From Acidobacteriota bacterium (GTDB taxonomy: Bacteria; Acidobacteriota; Thermoanaerobaculia; UBA5066): DNA of 64,000 bases. Each line of letters opens with the position of its first letter. Position 1 is the first letter of the stretch. The DNA lies in NCBI GenBank assembly GCA_029781975.1, contig JAKOVQ010000053.1, forward strand, positions 186,001 through 250,000. The letters run 5' to 3'. The position numbers were made by a program, and so were the translations under genes. The notes beneath the pieces are model-generated. The model did no database searches and was not told where the DNA came from. It saw only the letters and a list, made by a program, of their open reading frames with translations. Below, one piece after another: positions 15,427 through 51,571 of the stretch.

Positions 15427-16418
15427 GGCGCCTCCCTCCGCCCGCGGGCCAGGAGCAGGCCGAGGACCGCCAGGGCCGGGACGACCGAGGCGAGGGCCGA
15501 CGGGACCCCCGCGTCGCGCTGCAGGGCGCTCGACCCCGCGCCGAGAGCGGCGAAGAGCAGCGCGGCGACGGCCGAGCCGGCCGGCGCCATCCCGCCGAGG
15601 AGGGCCGCGGCTATCCCGGTGAAGCCGATGCCCGCCGAGAACGGGTCGTAGAGGCGCGCGGTGATCGCGAGGACCTCGAGCCCCCCCGCCAGGCCGGCCA
15701 GGGCGCCCGACGCGAGGAACGCCCCGGTCCTCAGCCCGACGTCGTCGAGGCCCGCCGCGCGCGCCGCGCGGGGCGAGAGGCCGGCGGCGCGCAGCTTCAG
15801 CCCGAGCGCGGTCCGTCCCAGGACGACGGCCGCAAGCGCCGCGAGGGCGAACGCGACGACGACGGCCGCCGTGGCTCGGGTGCCCGGGACGAGCGGGGGG
15901 AGGACGAGGGCGTCGGCGAGGGGCCTGCTCTGCGGGTAGTCGCCGGCCGGGTCGCGGAGGGGACCGCGGACCAGCCACGTCACCCCGGCGGCGGCGACGA
16001 GGTTGAGGAGGATGGTCGAGAGGACGGCCGGGACCTTCCTCCGCTCGGCGAGCCACGCCGCCGGGAGGACCCACGCCGCTCCCGCGAGAGCGGCCGCGAG
16101 GAGGACGGCGAGGCGGCCGATGAACGGAAGGTTGCCCACGGCCGGCCCGACGGCCGCGGCCGCCGCCGCTCCGGCGAGGAGCTGCCCCTCGAGGCCGATG
16201 TTCAGGACCCCGGAGCGGAAGGCCACCACCGCGCCGAGGGCCGTGAGGACGAGCGCGGTCGACCGTGCGAACGTCTCGCCCAGCGCGGCCGGGGAGGCGA
16301 GGGCTCCGTCGAGGAGGGCCCGGGCGGCCGCAAGGGGAGACGCCCCGGCGAGGGCGACGAGGAGCGCCGCCGCGGCGAGCGTCCCGGCGGCGACGGCCGC
16401 GGCCTGGAGCGGCCTCAC
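15423..16418 (-). CDS. BMP-type ABC importer, permease 1
   Basis: A 331-residue permease of the same family. Motifs include FRSGVLNIGLEGQLLAGA, VLSTILLNLVA and GIGFTGIAAALLGGMAPAG, typical of the larger permease in nucleoside or simple-sugar ABC importers (NupP/YufP type). It overlaps the ATPase gene (GTGA) and the second permease gene. Confidence 0.87.
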   Translation of the reverse strand: MRPLQAAAVAAGTLAAAALLVALAGASPLAAARALLDGALASPAALGETFARSTALVLTALGAVVAFRSGVLNIGLEGQLLAGAAAAAAVGPAVGNLPFIGRLAVLLAAALAGAAWVLPAAWLAERRKVPAVLSTILLNLVAAAGVTWLVRGPLRDPAGDYPQSRPLADALVLPPLVPGTRATAAVVVAFALAALAAVVLGRTALGLKLRAAGLSPRAARAAGLDDVGLRTGAFLASGALAGLAGGLEVLAITARLYDPFSAGIGFTGIAAALLGGMAPAGSAVAALLFAALGAGSSALQRDAGVPSALASVVPALAVLGLLLARGRREAP

Positions 16419-17971
16419 GCGGCGAGCCCCGCCATCCGCCGTCCGAGCGCCTCGAACGGCGTGCCGGAGGGGAGCGGCTCGGAGAGGCGGCCGCGGTAGA
16501 CGACGCGGATCGGCCGTCCGAACGCCTGCGCCTCCTCGGGGTCGGCGGTGACGACGAGGACGCCGGCCCCCGAGGCCGCTGCGTCGAGGAGCCGTGCCCG
16601 AACGTCGGCCGAGGCGGCGAGGTCGAGGCCCCGCGTCGGGTGGATCGCGGTCAGGACGCGCGGGAGAGGCTCCAGCTCTCGCGCGAGGAGGAGCTTCTGC
16701 TGGTTCCCGCCGGAGAGCTCGCCCGCCCGCGCGTCCGGTCCGGTCGCGCGGACGCCGAACCGGGCGAGCCGGTCGGCCGCCGTGGCGGCCATCGCCGCCC
16801 GGTCGACGAGGAGGCCGCCCGGCGGGCGGCGCAGGAGAAGGTTCTCGGCGAGCGTCAGGTCGGGGAGGAGCCCCTCGGCCCGCCGGTCGGACGGGATGAA
16901 CGCCCCTCCCGCCCGGCGGTAGGCGAGGGGGTCGCCCGGGCGGACCTTCCGCCCTCCGATCTCGATCGACCCTTCGGCCTCCCTCACGCCCGCCGCGGCG
17001 CCGGCCAGGTCGTCCGCGCCGTTGCCGTCGATCGAGAGGAGGACGACGAGCTCACCCGGGGCGACGGCGAGGTCGACGGGGGGAGCGGCCGAGCCGCGGG
17101 GCCTGAGGGCGCGGAGCGCGAGCGCGGGCGACGGCCCGGTTCCGCCGCCGCCGCCGTCGACGGCAACGCCCCCGGCGGGCGGTGCGTCGGCCGGAGGAGC
17201 CTCCCGCTCCGGGGCGCCGGTCCGCTCCGTCGCCTCCGCGCTGCCGAGGAGGAGCGCGCCGATCTCCTCCGCCGACGTCTCGCCGACGGCCGCCTCGCGA
17301 AGCGTCCTCCCGCGCGCGAGGAGGGTCAGCCGGTCGGCGGCGGCGAAGACCTCCGCGAGGCGGTGGGTGATGAGGAGGACGGTCTTTCCCGTCGAAGCGC
17401 GCGCGCGGAGAGCGCGGAAGAGGGCCGCGGTCTCGTCGGGGGAGAGGACCGCGGTCGGCTCGTCGAGGATGAGGACCGACGGGTCGGTCAGGAGCGCGCC
17501 GGCCACCTCGAGCCGCTGACGCGTCCCGACCGGCAGCTCGCCGACGCGGGCGTCCGGGGGTCCGACGTCGAGGTCGAGGGCGGACGCCACGCGCGCGACG
17601 CGCTCCCGCCGGGCGCGCCGGCTCTCCAGGAAGGGGGCCGCGGGATCGAGGAAGGCGAGGTTGTCGGCGACCGTCGCCGCCTCGACGAGGAGGTCGTGCT
17701 GCGGGACGAGGGCGATCCCGGCGCGGCGCGCCTGTCGGGGCCCGCGGAACGCCATCGGCTTCCCCGCGAGCCGGATCGTCCCCGCGTCGGGCGGGACGAG
17801 CCCCGCCGCGATCGAGACGAGGGTCGACTTGCCGGCTCCGTTCTCGCCGAGGAGGGCGTGGATCTCTCCCGGCCGGAGGGCGAGGTGGGCGCCGTCCAGC
17901 GCCCGGACCGGGCCGAAGGCCTTCGAGATCCCCGACAGCTCGAGCGCGAAGCCCCCCTCCCGACCGTTCAC
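16415..17971 (-). CDS. BMP-type ABC importer, duplicated ATPase
   Basis: A 518-residue protein with two ABC cassettes, as in RbsA, MglA and NupO. The first has Walker A GENGAGKST, the signature-like VGELPVGTRQRLEVAGALL, and Walker B ILDEPTAVL. The second has a degenerate Walker A (SIDGNGADDLAGAAAG) but an intact signature LSGGNQQKLLLAREL, the usual asymmetry in this family. A Pro/Ala/Gly-rich linker separates them. It energises uptake by the two adjacent permeases. Confidence 0.9.
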   Translation of the reverse strand: MNGREGGFALELSGISKAFGPVRALDGAHLALRPGEIHALLGENGAGKSTLVSIAAGLVPPDAGTIRLAGKPMAFRGPRQARRAGIALVPQHDLLVEAATVADNLAFLDPAAPFLESRRARRERVARVASALDLDVGPPDARVGELPVGTRQRLEVAGALLTDPSVLILDEPTAVLSPDETAALFRALRARASTGKTVLLITHRLAEVFAAADRLTLLARGRTLREAAVGETSAEEIGALLLGSAEATERTGAPEREAPPADAPPAGGVAVDGGGGGTGPSPALALRALRPRGSAAPPVDLAVAPGELVVLLSIDGNGADDLAGAAAGVREAEGSIEIGGRKVRPGDPLAYRRAGGAFIPSDRRAEGLLPDLTLAENLLLRRPPGGLLVDRAAMAATAADRLARFGVRATGPDARAGELSGGNQQKLLLARELEPLPRVLTAIHPTRGLDLAASADVRARLLDAAASGAGVLVVTADPEEAQAFGRPIRVVYRGRLSEPLPSGTPFEALGRRMAGLAA

Positions 17972-18012: not shown

Positions 18013-18088
18013 CCCCTGGTGGGGGGCCAGGGGGGATCGAGAAACCCCCAGGAACATGAATGCCTGGGGGGATCGAGAAACCCCCAGG
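18013..18088. repeat. Tandem hairpin repeat, locus A (two units, 36-bp period)
   Basis: Two units carry the core ATCGAGAAACCCCC at 18036-18049 and 18072-18085. Each core sits in an inverted repeat, CC(A/T)GGGGG, 10-nt loop GATCGAGAAA, CCCCCAGG (18027-18052, 18063-18088). A further 7-bp arm CCCCTGG at 18013 can pair with 18027-18033. The block lies right after the stop of the binding-protein gene and before the ATPase gene. The same core recurs near 51.2 kb. Confidence 0.8.
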
Positions 18089-18092
18089 AACA

Positions 18093-19142
18093 CTAGAAAT
18101 TCCCGCGGGGGACCGCCAGCTCCCCCTTCTCGATCTTCGCCTCCGTCAGCTTCACCTCGTCCACGACCGGCGCCGGGACCCGCCCGAGGAGGGCCGGGTT
18201 CCAGACGAACGAGATGACCTTGCTCTTCAGCCCGTAGCGGATCGGCTGGCCGGTGAAGCGCCCCTCCTTCACCAGCCGCGCCGTCTCGACGAACGCGCGG
18301 GGGAGGTCGATGACGGCGGAGGCGAGGACCGAGGGCGAAAGGGCGTTCTGGTCGCGGTTGGCGCCGAAGGCGTAGATGCCGCGCTCGGTCGCCGCCTGGA
18401 AGACGCCGAGGGCGGCGGCGTCGGCGTTCTGGAAGAGGAAGTCGGCGCCCTGGTCCACCAGGGCGAGGGCGGCCGCCTTCGCGCCGGCGACGTCCTCGAA
18501 CGACCCCGTGAAGACCGCCGTCGCCGTGGCCCCCGGGTTGCCCGCCTTCAGGCCGGCCTCGAACGCGAGGAACGTCGACTTAATCGAGGGGATCTCGACC
18601 CCGCCGACCATCCCCGCCTTCGCGCTCTTCGACATCCGCCCCGCCACGAGGCCGCAGAGGTAGGTCGCCTGCTCCAGCTCGAAGACGATCGGGGCCTGGT
18701 TCCGGGAGGTCCGAGAGCCGGAGGTCGTGATGAAGACCGTCCCGGCGTAGTCGCGCGCGACCCGCGCGGCCGCGTCCTGGAACTCGAAGCCGTGCCCGAA
18801 GCAGAGGCTGTAGCCCTTGGACGCGTAGGCGCGGAACTGCTCCTCGAACTCCGAGGGCGTCTTCACCTGGACGTGGGAGACCTCCGCCCCCAGCTCCTTC
18901 CTGATCGCCTGCAGCCCGTCGTACGCGCCCGCGTTCCATCCCGCGTCCGAGATGGGTCCCGGCGTCAGGAGGGCCACGCGGAACGGCCCGCCGGCCGAGG
19001 GGGGCGGCTGGGGTGCGGCCTTCCTGCAGCCGGCGAGGGCGAGCGGGACCGCGAGGAGCGCGAAGAGAGCGGGGAGCGCGAGGATGCCGGTGCGGCGGGC
19101 GCGGGCCGGTCGGACGGCGGCGAGTCGATGGGTGGCGGGCAT
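18093..19142 (-). CDS. BMP-family ABC importer substrate-binding lipoprotein
   Basis: A 349-residue lipoprotein with a basic N-terminus, hydrophobic core and lipobox LALAGC (Cys near residue 39). The mature part matches the BMP/Med/PnrA family: RVALLTPGPISDAGWNAGAYDGL, CFGHGFEFQDAA, FELEQATYLCGLVAGRMS, GMVGG, and a C-terminal half with FQNADAAALGVFQAATERG. Such proteins bind purine or other nucleosides. The gene heads an operon with the ATPase and two permeases. A separate nucleoside degradation operon lies 14 kb away, which supports nucleoside uptake. Confidence 0.88.
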   Translation of the reverse strand: MPATHRLAAVRPARARRTGILALPALFALLAVPLALAGCRKAAPQPPPSAGGPFRVALLTPGPISDAGWNAGAYDGLQAIRKELGAEVSHVQVKTPSEFEEQFRAYASKGYSLCFGHGFEFQDAAARVARDYAGTVFITTSGSRTSRNQAPIVFELEQATYLCGLVAGRMSKSAKAGMVGGVEIPSIKSTFLAFEAGLKAGNPGATATAVFTGSFEDVAGAKAAALALVDQGADFLFQNADAAALGVFQAATERGIYAFGANRDQNALSPSVLASAVIDLPRAFVETARLVKEGRFTGQPIRYGLKSKVISFVWNPALLGRVPAPVVDEVKLTEAKIEKGELAVPRGNF

Positions 19143-29934: not shown

Positions 29935-31119
29935 GTGGCAGAAGAGAGCCAGGACACCGTTACGCTGACGGTCGGTTCCCCCGCGCCGGGCTTCACGCTC
30001 CCGGGCCGCTCCGGAGCGTCCGTCTCCCTCGCGGACTTCGGCGGCAAGCACGTCCTCGTCTACTTCTATCCCAAGGACGATACTCCCGGATGCACGAAGG
30101 AAGCGTGCAGCCTGCGCGACGGCTGGTCCGAGCTGCAGTCCGCGGGGGTGACGGTCCTCGGGATCTCGCCCGACGACGCGGCGTCGCACAACGCGTTCGC
30201 CGCCAAGTACAGCCTCCCGTTCGAGCTCCTCACCGACGCCGACCACTCCGTGCACGAGGCGTACGGCGTCTGGGGGAAGCGCCCCTGGGGGATGGGGACC
30301 CTCCGCAAGTCGTTCCTGGTGGGGCCCGACGGCGCGATCCTGCACGTCTTCTCGAAGGTCGACGTGGAGAACCACGCCGCGCAGGTCCTCGCGGCGCTCC
30401 GGGGCGAGCCCTTCGCGCAGCCGGGCCCGGCCGCCGAGGCGAAGGTGGTCGTGGAGGCCGCGGTCGAGAAGGCCGGCGAGGCCGTCCAGGCCGTCGTCGC
30501 CGAGGCGAGGAAGGTCGCCGAGGAGACCATGGAGAAGCCGGTGGTCAGGAAGGCGGTCGCCGGGGCGAGCAAGGCGGTCGAGGACGCGAAGAAGGCGATC
30601 GCCGACGCGCAGAAGAAGCCCGCGGTGAAGAAGGCCGTCGCCGAGGCGAAGAAGGCCGTGAAGGGCGCGAAGAAGGCGATCGCCGACGCGCAGAAGAAGC
30701 CGGCCGTGAAGAAGGCCGTGGCCGGCGCGAAGAAGGCCGTGAAGGGCGCGAGGAAGGCGATCGCCGAGGCGCAGAGGAAGCCGGCCGTGCGGAAGGCCGT
30801 CGCGCAGGCGAAGAAGGCCGCGGCCGGCGCGAAGAAGGCGGTCCGCCGCGCCACGAAGGCCGCCGAGAAGAAGGCGCCGAACGCGTTCTCGAAGCTCATG
30901 GCCCTCGTGTCGCCCAGGAAGAAGGCGGCCCCGGCTCGCAAGAAGGCCGCTCCCGCCCGCAAGAAGGCCGCCCCGGCCCGCAAGAAGGCCGCCCCGGCTC
31001 GCCGGAAGGCGCAACCCGTCCGGAAGAAGGCCGCCGCGCGCAAGCCCGCGGCCCGCAAGGCCCCGGGCCGGAAGGCGCCGGCCCGCAAGCCGGCGGTCCG
31101 CGGGAAGAAGCGGAGATAG
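29935..31119 (+). CDS. BCP-type peroxiredoxin fused to a histone H1-like Lys/Ala-rich tail
   Basis: A 394-residue two-part protein. Residues 1-160 are a thioredoxin-fold peroxiredoxin of the BCP/PrxQ type, with peroxidatic C53 (YPKDDTPGCT) and resolving C58 five residues on, which reduces peroxides with electrons from thioredoxin. Residues 166-394 are nearly all Ala, Lys, Arg, Val and Pro: four copies of a 27-residue repeat (203-229, 230-256, 257-283, 284-310; e.g. AVKKAVAEAKKAVKGAKKAI), then PRKKAAPAR heptads from 327 and an Arg/Lys/Pro end. This tail resembles bacterial H1-like and eukaryotic linker histone tails and should bind DNA. The GTG start has GGGAGGA before it. The next gene starts directly after the stop codon. 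Confidence 0.9.
   Translation: MAEESQDTVTLTVGSPAPGFTLPGRSGASVSLADFGGKHVLVYFYPKDDTPGCTKEACSLRDGWSELQSAGVTVLGISPDDAASHNAFAAKYSLPFELLTDADHSVHEAYGVWGKRPWGMGTLRKSFLVGPDGAILHVFSKVDVENHAAQVLAALRGEPFAQPGPAAEAKVVVEAAVEKAGEAVQAVVAEARKVAEETMEKPVVRKAVAGASKAVEDAKKAIADAQKKPAVKKAVAEAKKAVKGAKKAIADAQKKPAVKKAVAGAKKAVKGARKAIAEAQRKPAVRKAVAQAKKAAAGAKKAVRRATKAAEKKAPNAFSKLMALVSPRKKAAPARKKAAPARKKAAPARKKAAPARRKAQPVRKKAAARKPAARKAPGRKAPARKPAVRGKKRR
30541..30864 (+). repeat. 81-bp coding repeats in the peroxiredoxin tail
   Basis: Four in-frame units of 81 bp encode the 27-residue Ala/Lys helix repeat. The units share most codons but differ in synonymous positions and in Lys/Arg choice, so they have diverged under selection for charge and helix. 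Confidence 0.85.
30913..31116 (+). repeat. 21-bp coding repeats (KKAAPAR heptads)
   Basis: Short in-frame repeats encode four KKAAPAR heptads followed by degenerate Arg/Lys/Ala/Pro units up to the stop. It is protein-level low complexity and is not a mobile or CRISPR-type repeat. Confidence 0.8.
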
Positions 31120-51144: not shown

Positions 51145-51249
51145 GGGGGACCGGCGCTCGAGAACCCCCGGGGAATCTTCCGTGCGGGGGTTCCGGGGGG
51201 ATCGAGAAACCCCCGGGAACACTGCTACCGGGATCGAGAAACCCCCGGG
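51145..51249. repeat. Hairpin repeat, locus B (two good units, one degenerate)
   Basis: The core ATCGAGAAACCCCC occurs at 51201-51214 and 51233-51246, a 32-bp period. The first core sits in CCGGGGG, loop GATCGAGAAA, CCCCCGG (51193-51216). A third, degenerate unit (GGGGG at 51145, CTCGAGAACCCCC ending 51169) lies to the left. The block starts 4 nt beyond the stop of the His-rich gene. It is the same family as the repeats at 18.0 kb. Confidence 0.8.
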
Positions 51250-51253
51250 AAAG

Positions 51254-51571
51254 CTAGCAGGCCCCGTGCAGGTCGCAGTGGTCTCCGTGTGGGTGGTGGA
51301 GCGCCCCGTTCACCTCGAAGTCGACGTGGTCGCCGTGCGGGACGGGCGGATGGCCGTGCGTGCCGTCGTGCCCGCCGGGGCACTCGATGGGAGCGCAGGT
51401 GGCCGGGCGCCTGTGGTCGACGCCGAGGGTGTGCTCGTCCGCGTGGCCGCCGTGGGGTGAATGGAGGTGGCCGTCATGGAGATAATCCGCGTGATCGCCA
51501 TGCCGGACCTCGCGGTGACCGCAGCCTGGGCCGTGCTGGTGCTCGTGACCCTCGTGCTCGCGACACGTCAT
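51254..51571 (-). CDS. Histidine-rich metal-binding protein
   Basis: A 105-residue protein with roughly a quarter histidines, in units such as HRHGD-like VRHGDHADYLHDGHLHSPHG, GHDGTHGHPPVPHGDHVDF and HHPHGDHCDLHGAC. It has several cysteines and ends in AC. No signal peptide is visible, so it probably buffers or delivers zinc (or nickel) in the cytoplasm. Similar short HGDHxD proteins are known beside zinc uptake genes in other bacteria. It is divergent from znuA. The ATG at 51571 begins MTCREHEGHEHQHGPGCGH. Confidence 0.72.
   Translation of the reverse strand: MTCREHEGHEHQHGPGCGHREVRHGDHADYLHDGHLHSPHGGHADEHTLGVDHRRPATCAPIECPGGHDGTHGHPPVPHGDHVDFEVNGALHHPHGDHCDLHGAC

Follow-up and report, generated by a model that had tools for sequence, protein, structure and literature searches.

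Directly behind the stop codon of a lipoprotein gene, a 64,000-nt window of an Acidobacteriota genome carries two short tandem hairpin units, which raises the question of whether they belong to a dispersed element and, if so, what such an element would do at this place. The earlier note had described two 36-bp units with a common core inside an 8-bp inverted repeat, starting 4 nt past the stop, with the core recurring 33 kb away. The exact core, ATCGAGAAACCCCC, lies on the plus strand at 18036-18049 and 18072-18085 (locus A, 36 nt apart) and again at 51201-51214 and 51233-51246 (locus B, 32 nt apart), and the stem indeed begins 4 nt past the TAG of the lipoprotein gene (Table 1). The inverted repeat is perfect in the gene-proximal unit (CCTGGGGG/CCCCCAGG), but the second unit contains one T:T mismatch. 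Two corrections apply to locus A: the element belongs to the minus strand, where it reads GGGGGTTTCTCGATCCCCCC, and a second C6 tract in copy A2 had been missed. On folding, the copy A1 region (18053-18092) gives -15.7 kcal/mol (z -2.2), copy A2 has a z of 0.33, and the whole locus A RNA (105 nt) folds no more strongly than shuffled sequences (z 0.35). The window alone contains 11 core matches at up to 3 mismatches versus 8.5 expected, so that by itself it could not have revealed the repeat.

Table 1. Features of loci A and B in the 64-kb window.
Feature	Position	Strand	Evidence
Bmp/PnrA-like ABC transporter substrate-binding lipoprotein gene	18093..19142	-	Pfam PF02608, E 5e-54
TAG stop of the Bmp lipoprotein gene	18093-18095	-	
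Copy A1: TGTT, perfect 8-bp hairpin 18088-18081/18070-18063, loop TTTCTCGATC, linker CATTCA	18057..18092	-	
Copy A2: TGTT, one-mismatch hairpin 18052-18045/18034-18027, second C6 18026-18021, then ACCAGGGG	18013..18056	-	
ABC transporter ATPase gene, next on the same strand after the lipoprotein gene	16415..17971	-	Pfam PF00005
TAG stop of the locus B gene, protein end HPHGDHCDLHGAC	51254..51256	-	
Copy B1: right arm shortened, stop to GGGG 8 nt	51228..51253	-	
Copy B2: linker, full hairpin, second C tract (AACCCCC)	51186..51227	-	
Possible decayed third copy, 3 mismatches to the core, alone within chance expectation	51157..51170	+	

The genome to which the window belongs (G000; 5.37 Mb, 54 contigs) contains 40 exact copies of the core, 18 on the plus strand and 22 on the minus strand, and none of the reversed control. 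The shorter TCGAGAAACCCC occurs 42 times in G000, and a covariance model built from 68 copies identified 50 copies at a cut-off of E ≤ 0.001, including copy A2 (G000:C2:204013-204058, window 18013-18058) and copy B2 (G000:C2:237178-237223, window 51178-51223). The copies are single or form short head-to-tail arrays, whose period is fixed within a place and varies from 32 to 79 nt between places. A CRISPR array, already doubted in the earlier note, was rejected, as there are one to four exact repeats per place, scattered over the contigs and with shared linkers. Arrays with a 47-nt period were seen at the ends of contigs C31 (L038, L027-L030) and C49 (L037) of G000, and the assembly may have broken inside one longer array there.

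Grouped by location, the G000 copies with an exact core occupy 26 places. At 25 of them, the first copy comes after the stop of an ORF on the same strand; the remaining one (L037), where no ORF lies upstream, is a decayed array at the end of a contig. The distance to the stop is 15 nt or less in 23 of the 25 places, degenerate first copies being counted by eye, and the stop-to-GGGG spacing is most often 8 nt. Genes were called with a home-made program based on codon usage (394 genes over 464 kb; the locus B gene was missed). By these calls, 37.7% of the oriented intergenic sites lie behind a 3' end on the same strand, and for 7.6% that end is no more than 15 nt away, which gives p values of about 4e-24 for 23/25 and about 3e-11 for orientation alone. 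Three further copies in G000, detected by the model alone (L180, L181, and L182), also lie behind stops. Counted genome-wide, the core thus occupies more than two loci with a clear bias in strand and position, in agreement with the REP/MITE-like dispersed element that the earlier note had suspected. Of the 25 genes preceding the element, 15 have a TAG stop, compared with 76 of 394 genes of the genome (p about 2e-5). TGA predominates among the orthologues of the 25, and the element therefore seems to bring the TAG along.

The Pfam assignments of the flanking pairs include ribosomal proteins S3 and L16 (rpsC-rplP; L017), ribose-phosphate pyrophosphokinase and L25 (prs-rplY; L026), Omp85 and OmpH (bamA-skp; L003), carboxyltransferase and biotin carboxylase (L024), a radical SAM protein and ferrochelatase (L032), and Bmp and the ABC ATPase at locus A of the window (bmp-ABC). 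The adjoining genes are mixed (gyrase B, SHMT, YchF, S3, methylmalonyl-CoA mutase, Hsp70, and others), and no common pathway is visible among them.

With no more than 150 candidates scored in each genome, six of 14 genomes of the family contain the element: G000 (50 copies), G006 (at least 123), G011 (6), G004 (4), G009 (1), and G012 (1). The identical six were obtained from 148 genomes of the class with stricter filters. All sources are MAG assemblies with heuristic gene calls and rough E-values, and the copy numbers given for G006 are minimum values. Single 14-mer matches were seen in G026, G053, and G059, which belong to another family of the class, and none of these genomes gave a model match. 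The 19-mer GGGGGTTTCTCGATCCCCC was found in 75 stretches of a species-genome collection, all titled Acidobacteria, Acidobacteriota, or Thermoanaerobaculia, a count that may omit near records of the window's own genome; the same 19-mer had no match in viral contigs, and a viral origin was dismissed on this basis. An Rfam scan of the window returned one tRNA only and no match for the element at gathering score. Our literature search found no description of such an element in Acidobacteriota, which does not prove that none exists.

G006, which represents a second expansion, belongs to a different genus of the same family. Of its 79 groups, four of which come from other genomes (L082, L093, L100, and L141), 68 follow the stop of an ORF, and in 49 of these the distance is 15 nt or less. 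Two G006 copies are located 12-13 nt behind tRNA-Cys and tRNA-Ala, and some lie, by eye, behind U-tract terminators (L087, L110, and L118). The 68 distances, which peak at 8 and 11 nt, are in phase, 42 of them being 2 mod 3 (p about 1.5e-6), partly because the G006 version, TTGATCC, can itself supply a TGA stop. An exception to the stop-codon rule was observed in G011 and G004, where a divergent copy lies beside a duplicated gene start (L167 and L170; dihydroorotate-dehydrogenase-like by eye).

The consensus on the gene strand is TGWTCCY-GGGGG-TTTCTCGAT-CCCCCC-RGR-CCCCCC-(about 4 nt)-GGGG, i.e. a hairpin with a covarying stem base followed by a second C tract, about 45 nt in length. Across 68 distinct rows, columns 9-30 of the stem base are U-A in 35, C-G in 26, and U-G in 4, and columns 8-31 are C-G in 61 and G-C in 5. 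Cells changed on both sides number 31 versus a shuffled mean of 11.1, a value reached in 0 of 500 shuffles; two pairs show a both-side change, which is usual among shuffles (186/500). A second possible hairpin, formed by the C tract and the following G run, shows no covariation in the 68-row alignment. The aligned copies were fetched by loop sequence, and the invariance of the loop in the alignment is thus by construction; the copies found by the model include the loop variants TTTCTCGGT and TTTCGCGAT in G011 and TTTTGTCGAT in G000. A first count of G-U/A-C asymmetry, meant to distinguish selection on RNA from selection on DNA, suggested an excess of G-U, but C5/C6 register shifts made this count unusable. 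Solo left arms (TGAACGCGGGGC) were also considered and rejected, being mostly matches inside coding DNA or unrelated hairpins.

Orthologues were available for 20 of the 25 element genes of G000 in G001, G003, G004, or G005, and in more genomes for the lipoprotein. The core is absent from the next 137 nt in all 64 orthologue rows, and the orthologous proteins end at, or a few residues from, the same place: the lipoprotein C-terminus (VPRGNF or VPRGDF) is kept, and the C-terminal region of the locus B protein is conserved in G001, G004, and G005. A kept C-terminus combined with a missing core indicates that the copies were inserted at existing stops. The distance from the lipoprotein stop to the next start is 2 nt in G005 and 31 nt in G004 (both by eye), and about 120 nt in G000. 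At another locus, where G000 has the element and G001, G007, G005, and G008 lack it, the stop of the gene and the start of the next are 123 nt apart in G011 versus 1 nt in its congener G004. A 13-nt sequence, AGTGAACGCGGGG, flanks a hairpin unit on both sides in G011; in G004 it is present once and the hairpin is absent.

REP-type repeats are common in bacteria, and the element, found at about thirty places, is a variant of these known repeats and not a chance pattern. It is a short palindromic hairpin with many extragenic copies, and it shares with REP, BIME, and REPIN sequences the location near 3' ends, between co-directional and convergent genes, the apparent supply of TAG, and lineage-specific expansion. 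It differs from them in that its orientation relative to the gene upstream is fixed, its arrays are mostly head-to-tail, its loop is 9-10 nt long, a second C6 tract follows, and a GTAG or CGTC tag and a link to a RAYT were not found, as detailed below. With regard to the inverted dimers of REPINs and BIMEs, the arrays of G000 are head-to-tail, and one G011 locus seems, by eye, to contain both orientations.

The copies are dispersed, uniformly oriented, and docked at stops that are empty in relatives, and the base of their hairpin covaries. The probable explanation, drawn partly by analogy, is that a non-coding repeat of about 45 nt has been copied into sites directly behind stop codons, in one strand orientation to the upstream gene, and exerts a REP-like effect as a hairpin without terminating transcription strongly. 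In one relative, tRNA genes, U-tract terminators, and a different palindromic repeat would also have acquired copies behind them. The hairpin would be transcribed as part of a 3'-UTR or intercistronic region within reach of the terminating ribosome, a position that makes a REP-like effect likely: slower termination or recycling at the stop and/or hindrance of 3'-5' exonucleases could modestly change how much upstream product is made relative to downstream product. For such an effect, whether on ribosomes at the stop or on the trimming of mRNA, the model is provided by the REPs of Escherichia coli; when located 15 nt or less from a stop, these are reported to cause ribosome stalling and to reduce translation of the gene upstream (PMC12306157), and 23 of the 25 G000 places fall into this distance class. 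For the lipoprotein, the reported effect would have the opposite sign to the 'more lipoprotein than ATPase' through reduced read-through proposed in the earlier note.

Strong transcription termination is unlikely, since copies lie inside the rpsC-rplP, prs-rplY, bamA-skp, bmp-ABC, and carboxylase pairs (internal promoters downstream are possible) and since ribosomes are reported to repress an intrinsic terminator that lies only a few bp behind a stop (PMC4824070). From this, together with the REP reports, we infer either an effect on ribosomes or mRNA decay or a tolerance free of effect; many copies are perhaps simply tolerated because the site after a stop does little harm.

Possible, at clearly lower probability, is a purely selfish REPIN/MITE-like element that prefers a TAG/TGA-like target, with docking and orientation resulting from target choice and purifying selection. 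Such an element would account for the over-use of TAG where orthologues mostly have TGA, the separate expansions and patchy presence (6/148 genomes), the tandem arrays with their place-specific periods, and the G011 hairpin unit between two 13-nt copies. However, the copies behind tRNAs, terminators, and the other repeat share, by eye, no preceding tetranucleotide. Hairpins at the same stops in G005 also speak against it. Relatives possess hairpins next to stops that share the layout but differ in the apical part and have an ACCCC(C)TCCGCG tail, e.g. TAGTG-TTCCTGGGGG-acccgggaccgcgcgggt-CCCCCAGGCCCC-tccgccgcgg in G005. In this genome, such a hairpin occurs at the same stop in 4 of 15 orthologues (L021, L023, L034, and L036 families), compared with 6 of 296 called genes overall (p about 6e-4; about 0.01 on 132 gaps of at least 50 nt). 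This comparison, which is post hoc and draws on two different scans (orthologue rows read by eye; a regex on gaps of at least 50 nt), suggests a role for the place itself. The layout regex is weakly above shuffles (5 versus a mean of 2.8 and a maximum of 10 in G000; 6 versus a mean of 2.2 and a maximum of 7 in G005).

These hairpins permit a broader, rather doubtful reading, in which the family has modular stop-docked 3' elements with a constant base (TGTTCYYGGGGG ... CCCCCRRACCCC) and swappable apical cassettes, TTTCTCGAT being one that has spread in two genera; machinery recognizing 3' ends (stop codons, tRNAs, and terminators) would place these elements, which would act on ribosomes at the stop. 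If this were true, the phasing in G006 (42/68) would be a trace of reading-frame coupling.

U-less ('I-shaped') intrinsic terminators of GC-rich bacteria consist of a GC hairpin without a U tract. The element resembles them as a GC hairpin behind a stop and departs from the ordinary intrinsic terminator in having RGR and a C tract (CCCCCC in 65/68) instead of a U tract. It is improbable that the element is a C-tract terminator of this kind and a member of a family-wide class of stop-adjacent GC hairpins with C-rich tails. U-tract terminators are not enriched in the window from 10 to 30 kb (5 found, 5.2 expected), same-layout hairpins with their characteristic tail exist in relatives, and the layout motif in co-directional gaps is found only in sense orientation (sense:antisense 3:0 of 95 in G000 and 4:0 of 85 in G005), all three observations speaking in its favour. 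However, these motif counts are small and within the range of shuffles in both genomes, and the element, unlike U-less terminators, sits within usual operons, e.g. between rpsC and rplP or carboxyltransferase and biotin carboxylase, and has a repeated sequence and a nearly fixed loop. The ribosomal repression of stop-adjacent terminators mentioned above also argues against it. Group IIC introns or IS elements that insert behind terminators likewise target 3' ends; unlike these, the element shows no coding capacity.

RAYT association is a trait of the GTAG class of REPs, CGTC REPs being said to lack a RAYT, and mobilization of the element as a GTAG-type REP by a RAYT (Y1_Tnp) is largely refuted and very improbable: within columns 1-9, GTAG occurs in 0/68 and CGTC in 4/68 aligned copies, TGAT and TGTT being commonest, and the number of Y1_Tnp genes (1 in G000, 0 found in the 83% complete G006, 10 in the element-free G003, 4 in G001, and 0-3 in other family members) has no positive relation to element number across the family genomes. 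What favours it is that REPs are reported to lie near gene 3' ends, between co-directional and convergent genes, and may supply TAG, as GTAG REPs often do (PMC3733652). The RAYT link raised in the earlier note also lacks support at the only Y1_Tnp gene of G000, whose flanks are unrelated to the element. This RAYT-like gene (L055 1400-2440, contig C37) has its own flanking inverted repeat, GGGGTCAGGTCTGTGATCCGTGAT / ATCACGGATCACAGACCTGACCCC.

The findings bear on how some REPs spread without an obvious transposase and on what role they have behind stop codons. Two separate expansions, empty orthologous sites for twenty genes in sister genera, near-exact stop docking, and a same-layout hairpin class in relatives form a useful set, with which the alternative of target choice or function becomes testable by comparison and reporter.

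A second palindromic repeat, TTCAGCCCTCCGGGCCGGGAAACGCCTCCGGCGCGCTGAATTT, was observed in G006 (L191-L215), where its 3' half is matched 25 times if up to 2 mismatches are allowed. In 3 of these 25 copies, the element lies directly 3' of this repeat, and the junction places the 5' boundary of the element near TTGAT/CCTGGGGG. Elsewhere in the window, positions 30505-31100 contain long lysine/alanine-rich tandem repeats with 21- and 81-nt periods, which appear histone-H1-like by eye.
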